Of a stretch of DNA of 22,197 nucleotides, positions 4,229 to 22,197 are shown in pieces. The translations under genes and the position numbers were made by a program. Every line of letters starts with the position of its first letter. Within the stretch, counting starts at the first letter, position 1. Source of the stretch: a virus. The notes beneath the pieces are model-generated. The model saw only the letters and a program-made list of their open reading frames with translations. It had not been told where the DNA came from and ran no database searches. The stretch lies in the IMG/VR virus record IMGVR_UViG_3300043409_001419, positions 1-22,197 of that record. One strand, written 5' to 3'.

Positions 4229-4930
4229 TCAAAACATTCTCCAATTTTTGGTTGGCTGTGTGCCTGTAGCATTGGAAGAAGATTCTCTATAAATTAGATT
4301 AAAGTCGCCCGCAAGACATATTCTCTGTTGAAATAATTCATTTTCATTGAATGCTTCGACAATAGTTTCTTTTCTATAACTATCAACGATATCGTGAGTC
4401 AATTCTCCAGGAAAAACAAATAAATCTCCCTCAAAAGCGGGTTGCTCCCAAGTTTTGCAATTAAACTCATTCCACTTATTCTTACAGTTAAATTCAGACA
4501 TACAATAATATAGATCATTAATGTTATTGTGTTTTCTATGGAATCTTAAATTCTTTTTTAAATCTTCGGGAATATTAATGTAGTAGGTAAAAACAACATG
4601 TGCGTCTGCGTGACAATGAACATTGGTCGGAGTTCCTGTAACACTTAGCCACGATTTAACAAGAGAAAGATCATATAATTGATCATCAATATTCATTGTT
4701 CGTATATACTCTCTCACACATTCAGAAGCAAAACGAAATATCGGAGAGTATGAATCTATAGTATGTAATCCGATATGTTTGGTTCTCTCACCGACACCAA
4801 CAACACTTTTAGTTGTTCCATTATTTCTAATGTAATCAAAAATAGTTTCTTTAAAGTGCTGCTTGAATGTTTCGTGATCTGGAAATTTCCATTCTCCATA
4901 TAACGTCGGAAATATCGAATGCTTAATCAT
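4229..4930 (-). CDS. 2OG-Fe(II) oxygenase-like protein (PF13759 type)
   Basis: A 233-residue protein resembling the 2-oxoglutarate/Fe(II) oxygenases common in marine T4-like phages. The pattern WLSVTGTPTNVHCHADAH (94-111) is followed by a Tyr-Tyr-Ile strand. It offers His/Asp metal ligands among H105, H107, D109 and H111. GDLFVFPGELTH (168-179) supplies the distal His, and R203 in RICLAGDFNL would bind 2-oxoglutarate. Such enzymes hydroxylate proteins, nucleobases or small molecules; the substrate here is unknown. It is unlike the second oxygenase in this window in sequence and subfamily. It lies 11 bases after the 128-residue gene, with a weak ribosome-binding site, and is followed by the gp13 promoter. 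Confidence 0.72.
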   Translation of the reverse strand: MIKHSIFPTLYGEWKFPDHETFKQHFKETIFDYIRNNGTTKSVVGVGERTKHIGLHTIDSYSPIFRFASECVREYIRTMNIDDQLYDLSLVKSWLSVTGTPTNVHCHADAHVVFTYYINIPEDLKKNLRFHRKHNNINDLYYCMSEFNCKNKWNEFNCKTWEQPAFEGDLFVFPGELTHDIVDSYRKETIVEAFNENELFQQRICLAGDFNLIYRESSSNATGTQPTKNWRMF

Positions 4931-4941
4931 ATATGCATATT

Positions 4942-5328
4942 TTATATTTCTACTTCAGTTTGAGAAAAAATAATTCCACTATTTGCATGCAAGATGGGAC
5001 CATAATTTTTAAGCTGATTTAATTCCCCATTTCGAGGAAATTCTGTTGAGATTGGTCTACGAGTAGTAACTCTCAGTATTTCTGTATCTTTACTGTAAGC
5101 GTCTTTTTGTTCATAATCTTTAAATATGCATTCAATAATTTGTTTAGACGCAAGATTACGAAATAATATTATTTCGTCTAATGCATTTTTATATGTTATA
5201 GTTTTAGATAATATTAATCCAGTATCTTCATATTTTTCTTTTATATAGTCCGATCCACCTTCTTTTATTCCTGGAAAAACTGAATCTGAAGTGGTTTTCT
5301 CATGAGTTATGGTTCTCTTGATAGGCAT
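4942..5328 (-). CDS. Hypothetical protein, 128 residues
   Basis: I do not recognise this protein. It is soluble-looking, with no signal peptide or membrane segment. It is mixed alpha/beta, with many Lys, Glu, Ile and Thr residues. It is the first gene leftward from the divergent late promoter pair and has a strong Shine-Dalgarno (GGAGG, 8 bases before the ATG), so it is probably well expressed late. The 2OG oxygenase gene follows at 11 bases, which suggests the two are expressed together and could be partners or enzyme and substrate. A virion or tail accessory role is possible from context only. Confidence 0.7.
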   Translation of the reverse strand: MPIKRTITHEKTTSDSVFPGIKEGGSDYIKEKYEDTGLILSKTITYKNALDEIILFRNLASKQIIECIFKDYEQKDAYSKDTEILRVTTRRPISTEFPRNGELNQLKNYGPILHANSGIIFSQTEVEI

Positions 5329-5350
5329 ATTATTGCCTCCTTTGTTTATA

Positions 5351-5358
5351 TATAAATA
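5351..5358 (+). promoter_or_regulatory. T4-type late promoter (TATAAATA) for the PP-loop genes
   Basis: TATAAATA on the plus strand, 20 bases before the ATG at 5379. With T4 spacing the start would be near 5364, leaving a leader of about 15 bases without a clear Shine-Dalgarno. It forms a palindrome with the minus-strand TATAAATA at 5361-5368. Confidence 0.65.
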
Positions 5359-5360
5359 AC

Positions 5361-5368
5361 TATTTATA
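5361..5368 (-). promoter_or_regulatory. T4-type late promoter (TATAAATA) for the 128-residue gene and oxygenase
   Basis: TATAAATA on the minus strand, about 33 bases upstream of the ATG at 5328. The predicted start near 5355 lies inside the opposing promoter, so the two divergent transcripts would overlap by about 10 bases. Confidence 0.7.
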
Positions 5369-5378
5369 GCGAATAATT

Positions 5379-6194
5379 ATGATCATCAGCGAAAATAATT
5401 GGATCAATGATAATTTTACATCGATAGGGCTTATCTCTGATTACGATGTAGAATTTAATCTGTATCCATTCAAGCCATTAGATTTCCATACAGCTGCAGA
5501 ACAAGCAGCAATAAAAATCTCCAAAAAATATCAAAACCTTTATGTAGGATTGAGTGGTGGAATTGATTCAGAATATGTGTTAGTGTGTTTTCATAAATTA
5601 AAAATTCCAATCATTCCTTTAATTATATTATGTGAAGGCAATGAACAAGAATCAAAATATGCATTTAAGATTTGTGAAAAATTAAATATCGTTCCTAAAG
5701 TTATAACTTGCTCGAATGATGTAATTCTCGATATATGCGTCAATTATATATCTAAAAAAATAAATGGTATAGGGTTTCAGTCAGCAACGCGAGCATATTC
5801 TGCAAATCATGTTAAAAATAACAACGGCACATTAATATGCGGTGAACATATCATAGGTGATGGTAACATATTAATAAGAGATAGTGAATACGCAATGAAT
5901 GAATGGGACGGATACGATTCTGCACACTTCGGAGATCAAATTGGATTTTTTACATATACTCCGCAATTGACTTATTCGATGATTAGTGGAAATACTTTGA
6001 ATGGAGAAAATATGAGCTGGAAAGAATATAAATCAAAATTATTTGGATTAGAATTAAGAGATAAAATTCATTATAGTTATCCAGAAAGAATCAAAAAGAT
6101 AATTTCATCTATTCGTAGATTAAGAAGTTTTGAAACTGGAATACGATGGAAAAGAGATGAGATTCTTGATATATTTAAGCCCTATCTGATATGA
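5379..6194 (+). CDS. PP-loop ATPase (adenine nucleotide alpha-hydrolase-like) 1
   Basis: A 271-residue protein with a clear PP-loop: LYVGLSGGIDSEYVLVCF (54-71), pyrophosphate-binding core SGGIDS (59-64). A Rossmann-like strand PIIPLIILCE follows (78-86). The superfamily includes asparagine synthetase, NAD synthetase, TilS, TtcA, QueC and ThiI. Members activate a substrate by adenylation and release pyrophosphate, so that N or S can be added. No N-terminal glutaminase domain, no CxxC thiolation motif and no THUMP-like domain is visible, so the family member and substrate cannot be named. It is one of only two plus-strand genes here, with visibly higher A+T than the virion genes. It overlaps the next gene by ATGA, implying coupled synthesis. 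Confidence 0.87.
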   Translation: MIISENNWINDNFTSIGLISDYDVEFNLYPFKPLDFHTAAEQAAIKISKKYQNLYVGLSGGIDSEYVLVCFHKLKIPIIPLIILCEGNEQESKYAFKICEKLNIVPKVITCSNDVILDICVNYISKKINGIGFQSATRAYSANHVKNNNGTLICGEHIIGDGNILIRDSEYAMNEWDGYDSAHFGDQIGFFTYTPQLTYSMISGNTLNGENMSWKEYKSKLFGLELRDKIHYSYPERIKKIISSIRRLRSFETGIRWKRDEILDIFKPYLI

Positions 6195-7312
6195 ACTCTA
6201 ATATTCAAATATATTCACCAGATAAATTTGGTTTTTATCAAGTTGGTGAGTATCGAACATACAGCAGAATGGAAGCAATAGAATACGCTGCAAAAAATAA
6301 AAAAAATATTCATTGGAATTATAATGACGAAGTATTTTCTAAGATAGATTTTTCTAAAGAGATAGATATATCTTTAAACGAATTATACAAATTAAGATGT
6401 AGACAAATTAGAAACTCATATGATTACGTTGTTCTTTTCTATAGTGGTGGATCTGATAGTCATAATATGTTAATGCAATGGATTAATTCTGACTGTAAAT
6501 TAGATGAAGTTGCAACACTCGTATCTCTTGAAGGATCTAAAGTTAAAAACGATTATGCGAATATAGAACAATATTCAGTTGCGATTCCAAATATCATAGC
6601 TCTTTCGGAAAAATATAAATTCGATTACACTGTGATAGATTTTTCTAAATTTATCATGGATTATATAGTTACGAATGCTCGTTATGAAAACATACTATAC
6701 GACATGAATTTTAATCTATCACCAAATAATATCGCAAAATCCTTATTGAGATATAATGTAGATAAGTGGAAAAACTTAATTCTTTCTGGAAAAAAAGTTT
6801 GTTTTCTTTGGGGTATGGAAAAATTAATTATCGTTAATAGAAAAGGAGATAATTATTTAAAATTTTTAGATCGTTATGATAATGTAGTTTCACCGATTGT
6901 TCAAAGAAATTATAATGCTGGTTGGTATGATGAGTTTTTTTCTATTACTCCAGATTTACCAGAATTAATGATAAAACAATGTAATATAATTAAAAACTTT
7001 TTCAAGATAAGAAATGTGAATCTACATTCAATTCTACCATATTATCAACAAACACCTTCTTCTCGAGGATATAATAAGATATTGAATTTATATCTATCCG
7101 AGGATGGTTATCGAAAACTCATTTATCCATATTGGGATTTAAATACCTTTTCTACAGGAAAATCTGCATCTACATCAAAATCTAGAATTGATGATTGGAT
7201 ATGGGATGGAAATATGATACAAAAAGATATTTTTTTAGACTCACATAAAATTTTTGAAACTAAAACATTAAATACTAGTATACCAATATCTACAAACGAA
7301 TATATTATTTGA
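6191..7312 (+). CDS. PP-loop ATPase-like protein 2
   Basis: A 373-residue protein with a second, distinct PP-loop: YDYVVLFYSGGSDSHNMLMQ (77-96), core SGGSDS (85-90). About 80 residues precede the loop. A longer C-terminal region, rich in Asn, Tyr, Lys and Trp, may hold the substrate- or partner-binding part; it has no recognised motif. It resembles asparagine synthetase/PAPS-reductase-like ATPases annotated in other marine phages, but the reaction is unknown. The start overlaps the stop of the first PP-loop gene, suggesting a two-subunit enzyme or two successive steps. Its 3' end overlaps the convergent gene at 7305 by 8 bases, so there is no room for a normal terminator. Strongly A+T-rich. 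Confidence 0.85.
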   Translation: MNSNIQIYSPDKFGFYQVGEYRTYSRMEAIEYAAKNKKNIHWNYNDEVFSKIDFSKEIDISLNELYKLRCRQIRNSYDYVVLFYSGGSDSHNMLMQWINSDCKLDEVATLVSLEGSKVKNDYANIEQYSVAIPNIIALSEKYKFDYTVIDFSKFIMDYIVTNARYENILYDMNFNLSPNNIAKSLLRYNVDKWKNLILSGKKVCFLWGMEKLIIVNRKGDNYLKFLDRYDNVVSPIVQRNYNAGWYDEFFSITPDLPELMIKQCNIIKNFFKIRNVNLHSILPYYQQTPSSRGYNKILNLYLSEDGYRKLIYPYWDLNTFSTGKSASTSKSRIDDWIWDGNMIQKDIFLDSHKIFETKTLNTSIPISTNEYII

Positions 7313-7787
7313 TAAGATTTAAATCTTCGAAGGGGTTTATCAATGATTGTACATTATTCAATATTTCTAAGAGTGTTTTATATTCGCTGATTTTTTTTGC
7401 AAGTTTTTCTTTTTTTTCTATTACAAGTTTTCTTTTTTCTAAAAATACGCTCAATACGCTATCATCTTTTAATTCTTGAAATATATTTCCTATTTTATCT
7501 TTAGACATAGCATTTATGAGTTCTATTAATCTAGATTGTATTAGTGAAATATTCGATTCACTTGTGGTATAAATCGTATCTGCACTGTAGTCTGAATGAT
7601 TTAAATTGTATGTCATTTGAAAATCAAATGTATTTGTTAGTGATTGCAAACATATTAATTGTGATTGTAAATTATTATTAACAACAACAAAATATAATTT
7701 ATCTAATTTATAATCCTTTTCGACATTTATATTTTCTAGTTCTTCTATGATATTATTGTTATCATCCAAATACAATAAATTTATCAT
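7305..7787 (-). CDS. Hypothetical coiled-coil protein, 160 residues
   Basis: I do not recognise this protein. I chose the ATG at 7787, which overlaps the upstream oxygenase stop as ATGA and has a GGAGAG Shine-Dalgarno 8 bases upstream. An upstream TTG at 7811 would add 8 residues but lacks such a site. The N-terminal half is Asn- and Leu-rich (MINLLYLDDNNNIIEELENI). The C-terminal half, KRKLVIEKKEKLAKKISEYK (about 117-136) with following Leu-spaced residues, is a likely coiled coil. It is probably co-translated with the oxygenase and could be its partner, or an accessory virion protein. The 3' end overlaps the plus-strand PP-loop gene. Confidence 0.75.
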   Translation of the reverse strand: MINLLYLDDNNNIIEELENINVEKDYKLDKLYFVVVNNNLQSQLICLQSLTNTFDFQMTYNLNHSDYSADTIYTTSESNISLIQSRLIELINAMSKDKIGNIFQELKDDSVLSVFLEKRKLVIEKKEKLAKKISEYKTLLEILNNVQSLINPFEDLNLIK

Positions 7788-8338
7788 CTGAATCGCTCTC
7801 CTGTAAACCAATTAACCAATGAATATCTTGTACCCTTTGTCACTGGTGATACTCTATGTTTTATAAAAGATGGAAAAACTACGATAGATCCTTGTAATCT
7901 AAAATCTGGAACTATTCCATTTTCGAATTCAAAAATCCCACCTTCATAATCATCTGGATTAGTGATGCTTATACTCATACTCAATTTTCTCATATCATTT
8001 TGAAATCCAGAAGAATCTTCATGGAAATCGTAAAACTCATCGTTGTCGTATATAGTGAACTGTGGTGATTGCTGTCCATTTATAGAAAAATTCCAACCAC
8101 TATTTCGATTTGCGATATCCATGTATTTCCAACATATGGCAGAAACCCAATTATTGGCATCGAAAAAACTTATTTTAGATTTTCTTGTTTTTTCATCCAC
8201 AGAACCTTCAGAATTATCACTTCCGCCACCAATCTTTCCCGAAGTCGATTTTAATTTTTTTCCTTCAGTAATGATTGCTTCACAAACAGAAACTGGAAGC
8301 TCGCCTTGCCATGACCACCACATCGGATCTATAATCAT
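7784..8338 (-). CDS. 2OG-Fe(II) oxygenase, prolyl 4-hydroxylase/PKHD type
   Basis: A non-heme Fe(II)/2-oxoglutarate hydroxylase of about 184 residues. The metal triad is clear: H106-x-D108 in FYDFHEDSSG and the distal H161 in FPSFIKHRVSPVTKGTRYS, with R171 to bind 2-oxoglutarate. The VVFPSF-KHRVSPVTKGTRY-W pattern is that of PKHD/P4Hc enzymes (PiuC/YbiX-like). YEGGIFEFENG is the usual strand before it. The start at 8338 makes an ATGA overlap with the upstream gene and has GGGTGA 7 bases before it. An alternative ATG at 8353 adds five residues. It lies two genes downstream of a collagen-like adhesin with Pro-Gly sites, an obvious candidate substrate (inference). It is clearly a different subfamily from the oxygenase at 4229-4930. 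Confidence 0.87.
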   Translation of the reverse strand: MIIDPMWWSWQGELPVSVCEAIITEGKKLKSTSGKIGGGSDNSEGSVDEKTRKSKISFFDANNWVSAICWKYMDIANRNSGWNFSINGQQSPQFTIYDNDEFYDFHEDSSGFQNDMRKLSMSISITNPDDYEGGIFEFENGIVPDFRLQGSIVVFPSFIKHRVSPVTKGTRYSLVNWFTGERFR

Positions 8339-9036
8339 ATTTTTTTCACCCATACATTATCGCGATAATGACTAGGAACACTCGATTGTATATCTCTATG
8401 TATTTGACGTTTTTTAATATCTTCTGGTGAAAATGTTTGTATCTTAGCCACTTTGTTATATTCTCGTTTAAATGGAATCACTTGCATCAACGGATATCCA
8501 GAATCCAATTTTAAATATCCATCTGTCTTAACAAATCCTGGAAAATTTACATACTCATAATAATTGTCAGTTTCGACTATTCCTGCCATAAGTTCTAACT
8601 TATTATCAATTCTATTTATCGGAGATATAAACAGACTAGACCATCCGGGTGGAGTTTTTACCATCCAGTAGTTTAATATTTTCAGTGGAACTTTTGGTGC
8701 TTTAGGATGCGTTGCGACTTGATGCAATTTATGATTTTCTATTATAGGATATATGAAATCTGATTCCCAAGATACTCCAGCTCCATCATCTATAACATTT
8801 AAATGCACATCGGCAACCAGAGGAATTATCCATCCAGCAGACATAGCATCTAAAAATGGTGGACACCGTTTAAGTGTTGGCGTTGGTGTAATCTTATTTT
8901 CTTCTTTATGATAAGATTCCAATCGCTTATACCAATCAGGAATAAACTGCTTCGCTGGATATGGTTTTGGTATTACTCCATCTAATCTAGGGTCACAAAG
9001 AAATTCGATTTCGTCATTCGATTTTTTCCAAAACAT
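8335..9036 (-). CDS. Conserved marine-phage protein, DUF6065-like
   Basis: A 233-residue soluble protein. The order of features (a short N-terminus, PYPAKQFIPDWYKRL, then TLKRCPPFLDAMSAGWIIPL, later VKTPPGWSSLFISPINR and GYPLMQVIPFKRE) resembles a family I recall as DUF6065. That family is frequent in cyanophage and other marine T4-like genomes and often sits beside 2OG oxygenases. Its function is unknown. The several Pro-Trp turns suggest a beta-rich fold. It has a good Shine-Dalgarno (GAGGAA). Its last codons overlap the start of the prolyl-hydroxylase-type gene, so the two are probably translated together. The family name is from memory and tentative. Confidence 0.75.
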   Translation of the reverse strand: MFWKKSNDEIEFLCDPRLDGVIPKPYPAKQFIPDWYKRLESYHKEENKITPTPTLKRCPPFLDAMSAGWIIPLVADVHLNVIDDGAGVSWESDFIYPIIENHKLHQVATHPKAPKVPLKILNYWMVKTPPGWSSLFISPINRIDNKLELMAGIVETDNYYEYVNFPGFVKTDGYLKLDSGYPLMQVIPFKREYNKVAKIQTFSPEDIKKRQIHRDIQSSVPSHYRDNVWVKKI

Positions 9037-9054
9037 AATATAAATTCCTCATAA

Positions 9055-10092
9055 TTATTGAGCAGCAAATGAAACTGTCACTGATTTCCCTGGCGCAACT
9101 GTAACTGTATATTGAGCTAAAGATCTAACTAGCGCAGTAGTTGTTCCTGAACCTCCAATTCCGCCGGCTGTACCTCCTGTTCCCGCATTACCTGCAGCAC
9201 CTGGATTTCCTGCTGTACCTGGATTTCCAGCTCCACCTGCATTACCTGCTGCAGCTGCATTACCTCCTGCACCTGCACCTCCTGCACCTCCAGGATTACC
9301 TGCGGGTCCAGCAGGAGTATTTTTGGTAGCTGGAGTTCCTGGTCCACCTGCTCCACCTGCTCCGCCGGATCCACCACCACCAACGTTCGGTGAGCCAGTC
9401 CCACCACCAGCACCACCGCCACCTCCACCAACACCACCATTGCCACCTGCTCCGCCGTTTCCACCCAACCCACCATTGCCACCTGCCCCACCATTTCCTG
9501 CACTGCCTGCATTTCCTGCATTTCCTGCAGCACCTGCATTTCCAGCGGCATAGCTAATTGATGGAGTTGCACCTGTCCACGCTGCAGGACCATTAAATGT
9601 AGATGCCACTCCGGCACTACCACCTACACCCGCATTTCCTGCTGGGGTTCCTGTTCCAGCGGCACCTGTATTACCAACAGCGCCTGCACTACCACCACCA
9701 CCTGCTGAACCTGCATTTCCAGTCGAACCTGCACCGCCAGGAGCATCGGATCCACCGCCACCGCCGCCTGGCGCGCTACCGGCATTACCTGGAGTTCCCC
9801 CACTGCCTGGGCCGCCAGCTCCTGAAGTACCACCACCACCACCACCGCCACCACCACTACCGCCTGTATTTCCTGGTCCGCCTGCATTTCCTGATGCGCC
9901 TGCATTTCCGGCCGCGCCTGCATTTCCGGCCGCGCCTCCATTTCCCGCAGTGCCTGCATTTCCATCAGAACCAGCTCCAACAACAGATATGACTCGAACT
10001 CCATAAGGGACTGTATAAGTTCCCGAGGAATTAAATGTTTGCGTTCCTCCAGGCCATACTGGATCCGTTAATAATGCAGTTGCTGTGAACAT
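9055..10092 (-). CDS. Gly-rich collagen-like tail adhesin
   Basis: A 345-residue protein of three parts. The N-terminus (1-36) has the phage Gly-rich-domain strand FNSSGTYTVPYGVRVISVVG. Residues about 37-315 are mostly Gly, Asn and Ala, first as regular Gly-X-Y triplets (GNAGTAGNGGAAGNAG), with poly-Gly runs, many Gly-Asn-Ala units and one non-repetitive insert around STFNGPAAWTGATPSISY. The C-terminus is a closing beta segment, YTVTVAPGKSVTVSF. Such proteins pack as polyglycine-II helices and form tip adhesins or tail-fibre ends (compare gp38 of S16-like phages). About ten X-Pro-Gly sites are present. The gene starts 1 base after the 112-residue gene. The low-complexity DNA opens long shadow frames on both strands. 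Confidence 0.85.
   Translation of the reverse strand: MFTATALLTDPVWPGGTQTFNSSGTYTVPYGVRVISVVGAGSDGNAGTAGNGGAAGNAGAAGNAGASGNAGGPGNTGGSGGGGGGGGGTSGAGGPGSGGTPGNAGSAPGGGGGGSDAPGGAGSTGNAGSAGGGGSAGAVGNTGAAGTGTPAGNAGVGGSAGVASTFNGPAAWTGATPSISYAAGNAGAAGNAGNAGSAGNGGAGGNGGLGGNGGAGGNGGVGGGGGGAGGGTGSPNVGGGGSGGAGGAGGPGTPATKNTPAGPAGNPGGAGGAGAGGNAAAAGNAGGAGNPGTAGNPGAAGNAGTGGTAGGIGGSGTTTALVRSLAQYTVTVAPGKSVTVSFAAQ
9150..9985 (-). repeat. Low-complexity Gly-X-Y coding repeat
   Basis: Degenerate short-period repeat encoding the Gly/Asn/Ala region of the adhesin (Gly-Asn-Ala-Gly triplet units and poly-Gly). The codons vary, so the protein pattern is kept more strictly than the DNA. Confidence 0.8.
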
Positions 10093-10093
10093 G

Positions 10094-10432
10094 TTATATC
10101 TTTACACCTATAGTTGAAAAGTCTGAAGGAATTTCTTCAATAGTTTTTGCAAACCACCTTTTTTGATAAACTTCTGATTTATCTGGAGATTCCCAAAATA
10201 TTTTTTCAAATATTAAAATTGGTAATTTTGTAAATTTAATAGTTGCTCCTTCGGTTTCTGGATCTGGAAACCAAGTGCTGAGTGCATCTAAACTGTCGTT
10301 TTTATGTTCTAAATCATAAAAGAGATGTGTGTATTTTATTTGATTTGAATCCAAATATGATTTAAATTCTGTCGACTCGTCATTCGATGTCGAATACAAA
10401 TAGATATCTGAATATTTAATTGGTGGTATCAT
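10094..10432 (-). CDS. Small hypothetical protein, possible thioredoxin-like fold
   Basis: A 112-residue protein with no confident family. SDIYLYSTSNDESTEFKSYL, followed by a second strand (KYTHLFYDLEH) and a LPILIFEKIFW strand with a cis-Pro-like turn, reads like the beta-alpha-beta order of a glutaredoxin. The redox CxxC is absent (Ser-Thr-Ser-Asn in its place), and the whole protein lacks Cys. The fold is a guess from the pattern. It has a strong Shine-Dalgarno (AAGGAG) and sits between the repeat fibre and the Gly-rich adhesin, so a tail-assembly chaperone or small tail part is plausible. Confidence 0.7.
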   Translation of the reverse strand: MIPPIKYSDIYLYSTSNDESTEFKSYLDSNQIKYTHLFYDLEHKNDSLDALSTWFPDPETEGATIKFTKLPILIFEKIFWESPDKSEVYQKRWFAKTIEEIPSDFSTIGVKI

Positions 10433-10464: not shown

Positions 10465-11937
10465 TTACGCCTCTATGAATGATTGTGAAATATACCAGCG
10501 TGTATCTCCATCGAATTTAGTGCAAACATATATAGTAACTTTGTTTGCAGCTGATGATACTGCCGGTAGTGTTGCGCTGTTATTAAACAGCAGAGTCTCG
10601 CCAGCGGGAGCTGCAAATGCCATTGTGCGACTTCCAGTAGCATCCTGTTTGAAAATTACAACAATAGTTTTAATTGCTTCAGCTTTTCCTGGCATTCCTG
10701 TAGGTAATGTAACAGTTGCATTACCTGTTAATGAAACCCTTTGAACATTTCTTACTGCAGATAATGTAATTGAAGTGGAAGATGCACGATAGGACATTGC
10801 GTCTTCTGTAAAATTTCTAATCTTTTTACTAGAAAAGTTTACATTATTAGAGAAAATTCCAATAGAAGCTGTATTGGAATAAACTCCGTTTGCACCACTA
10901 CCATTGATAAGTATATTTCTGCTAGAGTCGATACTCATAGCTTCTGTAGTATTTATTTGAAAAGCTGTGCTAGTCGCAGAATTAATAATTCCACTTGTTC
11001 CATCAGTTTTGAAGGTAGTGATTGTAGCCCCGTCGGATGTGCGGGCAAGGTCTAATACTCCGTTTGTACCAGTAGTACCTATTTTTAAAGCTGTAGATGT
11101 GAACGACGCGATTTGAGTTCCAGCGTTGGTGATGCGAAGTGAATTATCACCCGACGAAAATAATCCTGTCGAGCTAGATGTTCCAACACGCAGACCAGGC
11201 ACGCTGACTGTGCCATCTGGCATCTGCAATACAGTGGAAGCTACTACTGTGGTGCCGGTGACCGCAGCTAACGAAGTGTTACCCGATACTGTAAGATTCG
11301 TTGATATTGTCTTTGTACCAGTGTGAGCTGCAGCGCCAGTAGTTGTGATTGTCTTGCCAGCAGCACCTAAAGTCGTATTACCAGAGACAGTTAGCGCACT
11401 TGTAACAGTAGCTTTATTGGTAGATGTATTGCCGGATACTGTAAGATTCGTTGATATTGTCTTTGTACCAGTGTGAGCTGCAGCGCCAGTAGTTGTGATT
11501 GTCTTGCCAGCAGCACCTAAAGTCGTATTACCGGATACTGTAAGATTCGTTGATATCGTTTTTGTACCAGTGTGAGCTGCAGCGCCAGTGGTTGTGATTG
11601 TTTTACCAGCAGCACCTAAAGTCGTATTACCGGATACTGTAAGATTTGTTGATATCGTTTTTGTACCAGTGTGAGCTGCAGCGCCAGTGGTTGTGATTGT
11701 TTTACCAGCAGCACCTAACGTCGTATTACCGGATACTGTAAGATTTGTTCCTACAGTCGCGCGACCAGATAGAGTTGCGAGACCTGTTGACGTAAAGGCT
11801 ACGTTTGCAGTAATAGTATTTGCGTACAGAGAAGAATTATTAATAGCGAATTGACTTAAACGATCAAATGATATATTTGAATTCGTTCTCCACGTGTTGA
11901 ATGTGTTTGTTAACGCTACGTTTGCAATTTTGGCCAT
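10465..11937 (-). CDS. Repeat-built tail fibre protein, 490 residues
   Basis: Probable trimeric fibre or baseplate-attached tail protein. The N-terminus (NVALTNTFNTWRTNSNISFD) resembles the attachment domains of marine phage fibres. Residues about 60-240 hold four copies of a 33-residue unit with core NLTVSGNTTLGAAGKTITT and a GAAAHTGTKTIST half, plus shorter broken units. The repeats are predicted to form a beta-rich shaft. The C-terminal part (about 240-490) is non-repetitive and beta-rich, ending with AGETLLFNNSA and WYISQSFIEA, a likely receptor or tip domain. It has a clear Shine-Dalgarno (AGGGA) and a TATAAATA about 70 bases upstream inside the preceding small gene. It takes the gp11/gp12 region of T4, but I see no homology to those genes. 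Confidence 0.82.
   Translation of the reverse strand: MAKIANVALTNTFNTWRTNSNISFDRLSQFAINNSSLYANTITANVAFTSTGLATLSGRATVGTNLTVSGNTTLGAAGKTITTTGAAAHTGTKTISTNLTVSGNTTLGAAGKTITTTGAAAHTGTKTISTNLTVSGNTTLGAAGKTITTTGAAAHTGTKTISTNLTVSGNTSTNKATVTSALTVSGNTTLGAAGKTITTTGAAAHTGTKTISTNLTVSGNTSLAAVTGTTVVASTVLQMPDGTVSVPGLRVGTSSSTGLFSSGDNSLRITNAGTQIASFTSTALKIGTTGTNGVLDLARTSDGATITTFKTDGTSGIINSATSTAFQINTTEAMSIDSSRNILINGSGANGVYSNTASIGIFSNNVNFSSKKIRNFTEDAMSYRASSTSITLSAVRNVQRVSLTGNATVTLPTGMPGKAEAIKTIVVIFKQDATGSRTMAFAAPAGETLLFNNSATLPAVSSAANKVTIYVCTKFDGDTRWYISQSFIEA
11283..11758 (-). repeat. 99-bp tandem repeats in the fibre gene
   Basis: Near-identical direct repeats with a 99-base period: the CGGATACTG anchor recurs at 11433, 11532, 11631 and 11730. 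A further displaced copy at about 11284-11390 is separated by a short broken unit. Copies differ at only a few bases, mostly silent, which indicates recent duplication or conversion. The reading frame is kept (33 residues per unit). Confidence 0.9.
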
Positions 11938-20815: not shown

Positions 20816-22197
20816 TTATGTTACCCAATACATTCGTGCATTTGCAGTCGTTGGTGTGTAATCTGACGTTAGAGTCAAGAAGTTATTAGAGTAGATCGTT
20901 GAGACTGTGTATAGATTTGTATTTGAGGTGAATGTGGCGGCCGCTGGTATGATTCTGACAGTCGTTGTAGATACAATCGATCCATTTCCAAAGTTTCCAT
21001 TTGCTTGGCGATCCAGATTCCGTCCGATATCTGGTGATGTTACAAGAACGAGTCTTGGAATTCCATCCAAATCGGTCATCGTTTGAATTTGAACAGCTTT
21101 AAATACATTCACCGTATCCTTGCTAAATGTAGATATCTGCGTATTACCATATACAACTCTCACAAATCCTGTAGGTTGTCCAGTGGTTGTTGAGAGGTTA
21201 AATACCACAGCAGTTTGCAGATCAACTGGCGTTCCGGAAGTTTCTAATATTGCAGCAGGACCAGTATACACAGCAGTTTCCCGATCAACTGGCGTTCCGG
21301 AAGTTTCTAATATTGCAGCAGGACCAGTATACACAGCAGTTTCTAGATCAGCTGGTGTAGAAGTTTCAGAAACTGATGCTAATGAATTCCACCGAGCTGT
21401 TTCTAGATCAGCTGGTGTAGAAGTTTCTGTAACTGATGCTAATGAATTCCACTGAGCTGTTTCTAGATCAGCTGGCGTTCCACCGTATTCATATACGTTA
21501 ACCTCTTTTGTTATAGTAGCAGTTTCCCGATCAGCAGGAGTTACACCAGATTCTAGAACAGCAACAGATGTAATTGCGCCAGCAGGTTCTAGATCAGCTG
21601 GTGTAGAAGTTTCAGAAACTGATGCTAATGAATTCCACCGAGCTGTTTCTAGATCAGCTGGTGTAGAAGTTTCTGTAACTGCTGGAGTTCCAGAATACAC
21701 AGCAGTTTCCCGATCAGCAGGAGTTACACCAGATTCTACAACAGCGGCAGGTCCAGTATACACAGCAGTTTCCCGATCAGCAGGAGTTACACCAGATTCT
21801 ACAACAGCGGCAGGTCCAGTATACACAGCAGTTTCTAGATCAGCTGGTGTAGAAGTTTCAGAAACTGATGCTAATGAATTCCACCGAGCTGTTTCTAGAT
21901 CAGCTGGTGTAGAAGTTTCTGTAACTGCTGGAGTTCCAGAATACACAGCAGTTTCCCGATCAGCAGGAGTTACACCAGATTCTACAACAGCGGCAGGTCC
22001 AGTATACACAGCAGTTTCCCGATCAGCAGGAGTTACACCAGATTCTACAACAGCGGCAGGTCCAGTATACACAGCAGTTTCTAGATCAGCTGGTGTAGAA
22101 GTTTCATACAGATTAACTTCTTTTGTTACACGTTGGCTGGAGATATCGGTAACAGTTCCAGCAGTTTCAAAAACAGACGCAGATGTTATGACTCCAC
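20816..22197 (-). CDS. Repeat-built virion protein (C-terminal part, runs off right edge)
   Basis: The frame stays open to the right edge, so this is the C-terminal 460 or so residues of a longer protein. A GTG at 22072 lies inside a repeat and is not the likely start. It consists of 20-21-residue repeats built on the core TPADLETA or TPADRETA, each followed by a variable strand (VYTGPAAVVESG, RWNSLASVSETS, TITKEVNVYEYGG). The last 130 residues or so are non-repetitive (TTTGQPTGFVRVVYGNTQIS onward) and end in MYWVT. The repeats suggest a beta-stranded stalk capped by a globular end, as in a tail fibre or whisker. The position before gp8 suggests a baseplate- or tail-linked structure. I know no named family for it. 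Confidence 0.8.
   Translation of the reverse strand, partial: GVITSASVFETAGTVTDISSQRVTKEVNLYETSTPADLETAVYTGPAAVVESGVTPADRETAVYTGPAAVVESGVTPADRETAVYSGTPAVTETSTPADLETARWNSLASVSETSTPADLETAVYTGPAAVVESGVTPADRETAVYTGPAAVVESGVTPADRETAVYSGTPAVTETSTPADLETARWNSLASVSETSTPADLEPAGAITSVAVLESGVTPADRETATITKEVNVYEYGGTPADLETAQWNSLASVTETSTPADLETARWNSLASVSETSTPADLETAVYTGPAAILETSGTPVDRETAVYTGPAAILETSGTPVDLQTAVVFNLSTTTGQPTGFVRVVYGNTQISTFSKDTVNVFKAVQIQTMTDLDGIPRLVLVTSPDIGRNLDRQANGNFGNGSIVSTTTVRIIPAAATFTSNTNLYTVSTIYSNNFLTLTSDYTPTTANARMYWVT
21205..22105 (-). repeat. Nested tandem repeats (60/63 bp, with a 246-bp higher-order unit)
   Basis: Basic units of 60 or 63 bases (20 or 21 residues). Four of them form a 246-base (82-residue) block present as two adjacent copies, 21589-21834 and 21835-22080, which I read as identical base for base. 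A third copy starts at 22081 and diverges after about 26 bases. A separate pair of 63-base copies lies at 21220-21345. Confidence 0.92.

Follow-up and report, generated by a model that had tools for sequence, protein, structure and literature searches.

A late-expressed gene module that may mature a repetitive tail adhesin in T4-like phages

The window, a complete IMG/VR record of 22,197 bases (IMGVR_UViG_3300043409_001419), derives from a T4-like phage. Its left flank (gp17, gp16, gp15, gp14 and gp13) and its right flank (phrog_473, phrog_358 and a baseplate wedge gene) are T4-like, and between them lie the genes F to O: two 2-oxoglutarate (2OG) oxygenases (F and K), two PP-loop ATPases (H and I), a DUF6065-like protein (L), a glycine-rich protein (M) and the genes G, J, N and O. 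The best reading of this block, held with rather more confidence than doubt, is a late-expressed module that matures a repetitive tail adhesin, the product of M. K and F would hydroxylate side chains (Asn, perhaps Pro) in the GNA and GNP triplets of M, and L would recognise or guide, or itself act on, the Asn-containing repeat. H and I may activate a carboxylate with ATP, in a manner like NAD synthetase and asparagine synthetase, and form an amide on the adhesin or on an attached group; this ATP-dependent step would belong to some lineages. The repeat as substrate, the residues modified, the action of L and a target common to the PP-loop pair are putative assignments. The first-pass annotation had listed two PP-loop ATPases, two 2OG oxygenases, a DUF6065-like protein and a Gly-rich adhesin, and each was found where it had been placed. 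As judged from the sequences, these frames are true genes and not chance open reading frames (ORFs), because they are kept in independent contigs.

The 2OG oxygenases are strongly associated with one type of adhesin. Both enzymes carry the sequence hallmarks of the 2OG-Fe(II) oxygenase superfamily, with an HxD...H triad, a distal Arg and a profile score above the cut-off. F reaches 32.1 bits against PF13759 (cut-off 27; 1.5e-7) and 6.8e-18 against phrog_81; its residues His107, His179 and Arg203 are invariant across seven relatives, and Asp109 is missing in one distant relative. K reaches 46.6 bits against PF13640 (6.8e-12) and 1.6e-37 against phrog_61, and its H111xD113, H166 and R176 are invariant across 11 relatives. 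The association emerged from a scan that used the first 50 residues of M alone, was blind to neighbouring genes and kept the best 80 contigs. Among these cap-picked contigs (739 kb), 77 of 80 carry a K-type 2OG gene, compared with 7 of 80 contigs picked by gp14 (710 kb in all) and none of 19 loci with LamG fibres. The 2OG proteins of the cap-picked contigs form 41 clusters at 90% identity and 13 at 70%. Their genes lie upstream of the adhesin in a soil and freshwater group, downstream in T4-like phages and in a third arrangement in locus L273. In L285, four adjacent genes matching PF13759, PF13640, PF13640 and PF13532 (the last below its cut-off) run directly into the adhesin. Blocks of 2OG genes near Gly-rich proteins also occur in the cultured phages HTVC008M, HTVC033P, S-SM1 and S-CAM8.

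M itself comprises 345 residues, of which 38% are Gly arranged in Gly-X-X (GXX) triplets, with Asn as the favoured residue following Gly. Its N- and C-terminal caps are conserved, and it is here considered a putative adhesin. Polyglycine-II phage adhesins of the S16 gp38 type have Gly-rich motifs that fold into a polyglycine-II sandwich; for M, the comparison with them covers GXX composition. Expression late in infection, as proposed in the first-pass annotation, is backed by T4-type late-promoter-like sites. An exact divergent pair of TATAAATA, the T4 late promoter core, lies between G and H, 40 and 28 nt from their starts. The pair divides H and I, whose strand is opposite to that of all other genes, from G and F, and it is kept in L002. 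In the window, TATAAATA was counted eight times, compared with 3.25 expected from shuffling.

L scores 25.2 bits against DUF6065 (PF19541), below the cut-off of 26.6, and stands in the tree on a branch apart from the canonical members; it is called DUF6065-like here. Its match to phrog_7084 is 4e-48. The AlphaFold2 (AF2) model of L (pLDDT 86.7) matched the dUTPase 3ecy_A over 119 residues (Z 10.7, root-mean-square deviation 2.6), and all the structure matches listed were dUTPases, so that a dUTPase fold is predicted for L. A first profile comparison of DUF6065 with dUTPases gave no match, and one with other settings gave P 0.01 and aligned dUTPase motifs 3 and 4; the relationship therefore rests on the predicted fold. 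When the five catalytic motifs of dUTPases were sought in L, motif 5 was missing and motif 2 altered.

In viruses, a 2OG gene lies within 500 nt of DUF6065 in 19 of 25 loci. The phage neighbours of DUF6065 are GNA/GNP adhesins, an adhesin of SYNAQNVA repeats whose caps are similar, or other tail-fibre genes. GXX runs are longer in those cap-picked adhesins that have DUF6065 close by (p=3e-4). A genome scan revealed bacterial DUF6065-like relatives of about 39-47% identity, mainly in Rhizobiales. A Ser/Asn repeat lies within 1 kb of the DUF6065-like gene in 74 of 80 such loci (L120-L199, e.g., L126:7326-8684); the loci are related to one another, and the 74 cannot be taken as independent cases. 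Elsewhere in the same 80 loci (0.99 Mb), such repeats were found in three loci, and they were absent from 14 canonical DUF6065 loci, a control set with no recurring repeat at its side. The (NSSS)n DNA pattern, sought in ten genomes (3.9 to 7.4 Mb), has almost no occurrence outside the DUF6065-like locus. The (SSSN)n protein is short and, by eye, starts like a secreted protein; an S8 protease, an extracytoplasmic function (ECF) sigma factor and an anti-sigma-like gene lie nearby in 56-61 of the bacterial loci. A Dehalococcoidia chromosome assembled from metagenomic reads carries a GXX protein, a DUF6065-like gene, a 2OG gene and a tail-like ORF amid bacterial genes (L189:7208-10355), either a prophage remnant or a misassembly.

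The link between DUF6065 and repeats is strong, and the feature common to its phage and bacterial partners is an Asn-containing low-complexity repeat. A tentative proposal, rated somewhat less likely than not, is that the DUF6065-like proteins form a dUTPase-fold family dedicated to such repeats. In bacteria they would handle or modify a secreted (SSSN)n protein from a sigma-factor locus, and in phages they may serve a modified GNX adhesin together with 2OG enzymes and optional PP-loop ligases. The earlier suggestion that tail parts are chemically decorated gains support by association only, and for the 2OG enzymes and the DUF6065-like protein: the former track this type of adhesin across different phages, and the latter accompanies longer GXX runs in phages and an Asn-repeat protein in bacteria.

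Several observations weigh against a maturation module. One soil and freshwater phage group supplies most of the 77 loci, so that the independent lineages are far fewer than 77. Most 2OG-adhesin pairs occur without DUF6065 and without PP-loops, and PP-loops occur beside curli genes at the same site without the adhesin. The K-type 2OG gene of Melnitz-2 is not beside a tail gene, and P-SSM7 shows the pairing of 2OG and Gly-rich genes weakly. Finally, DUF6065 adjoins thymidylate synthase in haloviruses and ribonucleotide reductase in S-RIM4. Because of these neighbours, those members may have a nucleotide role. Extended to the window, it would mean that the dUTPase-fold protein and the 2OG enzymes act on nucleotides or DNA. 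The predicted fold and the pairing of motifs 3 and 4 would fit such an activity; the altered motif 2, the missing motif 5, the late tail location and the repeat protein as bacterial neighbour argue against it. L is unlikely to serve as a dUTPase, as all six of the DUF6065-like-bearing bacteria tested also have a PF00692 dUTPase match, and so does contig G004, which carries the full cassette. For the window, modification of nucleotides or DNA is regarded as very unlikely.

The PP-loop pair is best described as a recurrent add-on to the core, with a putative role in the maturation of the adhesin. H and I were assigned to the N-type PP-loop ATPases, whose mark is an SGGxDS loop in a HUP domain. 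The motifs SGGIDS in H and SGGSDS in I are invariant among aligned relatives. By sequence, the two proteins resemble asparagine synthase and NAD synthase but stay below the curated Pfam cut-offs (E 0.18 and 0.022 for H, no listed match for I). The best PDB match of the H profile is NAD synthetase 3p52 (E 0.0024). The model of I, of low confidence (pLDDT 65), aligned best with asparagine synthetase (272 residues, Z 10.9, root-mean-square deviation 5.4) and next best with beta-lactam synthetase, with HUP-like fold matches. The PP-loop families of NAD- and asparagine-synthetase type consume ATP, adenylate their substrates and mostly form amides. H and I share the SGGxDS loop with asparagine, beta-lactam and NAD synthetases, and I aligns with asparagine synthetase over most of its length; unlike these enzymes, they have no glutaminase domain, in addition to the scores below cut-off. 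Neither gave a match among 50,697 GenBank phages. Arrays of two to five PP-loop paralogues, including a degenerate copy (NLWKLLSGGDTV), stand before gp13 together with an AsnB-like enzyme in L023, L030, L244 and L052, and a pyridoxal phosphate (PLP) aminotransferase accompanies the array in L023 and is also found in L243.

The arrangement of the genes is conserved over considerable divergence. A few of the relatives came from single-sequence and H-profile scans and most from gp14, DUF6065 and adhesin-cap scans. L002 holds the full cassette, with two tandem copies of H and, between gp13 and F, a twitch-domain radical SAM gene (NF033640, 1e-79). L003 runs H twice, then I, J, K, L, M, N and O. 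L021 reads M, L, K, J-like, I, a DUF2061 gene, H, G-like genes and a second I-like PP-loop, beyond which come an ORF of 172 residues (2OG-like by eye, with no Pfam match), a TctC receptor and gp13. In L097/L098 the order is O-N-M-L-K-J-like-I-H, a second I, TctC and gp13. Full gene order is thus kept in the window, L002, L021 and L097 and in the visible part of L003; in L097 the order and the inverted strand of H and I persist at PP-loop identities to the window of 33% (H) and 40% (I). Elsewhere the set is partial: in L243, L244 and L251 the genes M, DUF6065 and K are accompanied by different PP-loop paralogues, by an aminotransferase or by an AsnB-like protein, and L100-L107 and L112 keep the adhesin, 2OG and DUF6065 without PP-loops. 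The core of GXX adhesin, DUF6065 and 2OG recurs in the DUF6065-bearing T4-like relatives.

Co-occurrence was assessed in 15 dereplicated loci, including the window, from the 80 gp14-picked contigs, each with at least 4.5 kb upstream of gp13; the p values, which ignore shared ancestry, were 0.002 for DUF6065 with GXX, 0.026 for PP-loops with N and 0.3 for 2OG with PP-loops. The idea that PP-loop, 2OG and adhesin genes are gained and lost together is borne out in part only: the figures tie DUF6065 to the GXX adhesin but not 2OG to PP-loops, and PP-loops also occur beside curli without the adhesin. The contrary idea of a simple hypervariable cargo site, which brings adhesin and enzymes together merely through tolerated insertions, describes the site and misses the conserved core within it. 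The location, with a large structural gene on one side and gp13/gp14 on the other, and the fibre-like genes agree with the hypervariable host recognition cluster (HRC) of T4-like phages, a published island between VrlC and gp14 that carries fibre genes (PMC7029224); the phrog_358 gene would be the candidate VrlC. In relatives the site is occupied by PP-loop arrays, curli, TctC or LamG fibres. The weak 2OG-PP co-occurrence points in the same direction. On the other hand, the core recurs with the adhesin outside the site and in other phages, and order is kept at the low PP-loop identities given above. For the core, independent cargo was dismissed, whereas the PP-loops may still be such cargo; as an account of the whole block, ordinary cargo is considered unlikely.

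Upstream of gp13, L033, L037, L039, L043, L046, L049 and L052 carry at the same site a curli-like operon comprising, by eye, CsgG- and CsgF-like genes, curlin repeats, and FecR-like and CHASE2-cyclase-like genes. Curli genes and radical SAM cassettes have already been reported for these phages, including pelagimyophages (PMC7029224). TctC-type periplasmic receptor genes also occur at the site (L021:7464-8354, PF03401; and, by similarity or by eye, L033:2374-3363, L052:1437-2423 and L097:12224-13141). These receptors, together with the AsnB-like protein and the PLP aminotransferase of L023 and L243, would suit a host-directed role, in which the AsnB-like PP-loops, the aminotransferase, the 2OG enzymes and TctC act late in infection to change the nitrogen metabolism or surface of the host cell, or a small molecule. 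The presence of lipopolysaccharide-related genes within the HRC (PMC7029224) and the functions previously proposed for cyanophage 2OG enzymes, in DNA repair or in 2OG and nitrogen metabolism (PMC3037559), are in line with it. Such a role leaves unexplained the near-constant link of 2OG genes to one adhesin type and that of DUF6065 to Asn repeats, and it is thought quite unlikely.

Among known systems, the HRC of pelagimyophages and cyanomyophages resembles the block in lying before gp13/gp14 in the structural region and in mixing tail-fibre genes with enzymes; it differs in that the searched text of PMC7029224 makes no mention of a PP-loop, DUF6065 or Gly-rich adhesin link, and in the conserved internal module described here. 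The 2OG blocks of cyanophages (Syn9, S-SM1, S-CAM8) and of Pelagibacter phage HTVC008M likewise have several 2OG genes in a row close to fibre or Gly-rich proteins, but without the H/I pair. In Syn9 (NC_008296.2, gp41-gp43, annotated; L008) the block also includes DUF6065 and tryptophan halogenases; a tryptophan halogenase was seen by eye near DUF6065 and 2OG genes in L113:6036-7550, a further chemistry in similar fibre regions. The dUTPase/beta-clip family shares with L the predicted fold and segments like motifs 3-4, whereas L differs in motifs 2 and 5 and in gene context. Prolyl and lysyl hydroxylases act on collagen-like proteins at the surface of bacteria and giant viruses. They too tie a 2OG oxygenase to a Gly-X-Y repeat protein; the repeat of M, however, is rich in Asn and Ala and not in Pro, and DUF6065 and PP-loop partners are absent from the known cases.

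The features of the block are collected in the table. J-like genes are present in L002, L003, L021 and L097. The ATGA overlaps of the first-pass annotation were seen for H and I at 6191-6194 and apply to K and J too if J begins at an internal ATG; K and L overlap by 19 nt. Positions 20816-22195 of the window encode a long, probable fibre protein built of nearly identical repeats (ETAVYTGPAAVVESGVTPADR...), whose frame runs off the end of the contig.

Table. Coordinates of the genes and promoter-like sites of the putative adhesin-maturation block in the window.
Feature	Position	Strand	Basis
F: 2OG-Fe(II) oxygenase, 233 residues	4229..4930	-	PF13759, phrog_81
G: 128-residue protein, function unassigned	4942..5328	-	ORF list; similar genes near PP-loops in L002 and L021 (several copies)
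Divergent TATAAATA late-promoter-like pair	5351..5368 (5351-5358 +, 5361-5368 -)	both	same pair in L002 at 7963/7973
H: PP-loop ATPase (SGGIDSE), NAD-synthetase-like	5379..6194	+	invariant motif, profile match 3p52
I: PP-loop ATPase (SGGSDS), asparagine-synthetase-like model	6191..7312	+	motif, model, ATGA overlap with H
J: protein of unassigned function	7305..7787	-	ORF listed to 7811 from TTG; ATG at 7787 overlaps K stop
K: 2OG-Fe(II) oxygenase, 189 residues, PKHD/P4H-like	7784..8353	-	PF13640, phrog_61
L: DUF6065-like, predicted dUTPase fold	8335..9036	-	phrog_7084, AF2 model
M: Gly/Asn-rich GXX repeat protein, putative tail adhesin	9055..10092	-	composition, caps, late tail location
N: 112-residue protein, function unassigned	10094..10432	-	kept beside M or neighbouring fibre gene in many relatives
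O: repeat-containing fibre-like protein	10465..11937	-	phrog_4549 (weak, 0.036); relatives

The site and the 2OG genes of phages were already known; the tie to an adhesin type, the fold of DUF6065 and the bacterial Ser/Asn-repeat partner were not found described. In the open-access literature searched, no paper was found on DUF6065, on SSSN repeats, or joining phage 2OG-Fe, tail fiber and glycine-rich, although absence there is not proof. If true, the connection of a dUTPase fold with Asn repeats would constitute an undescribed repeat-modification system common to phages and bacteria. For DUF6065-like proteins, the analysis supplies a fold prediction and, in both phages and Rhizobiales, a partner that can be tested. 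2OG enzymes are frequent in marine phages and have been assigned to DNA repair or nitrogen metabolism; the near-constant pairing with one adhesin type suggests that many of them may instead mature a receptor-binding tail protein, with a bearing on host recognition.

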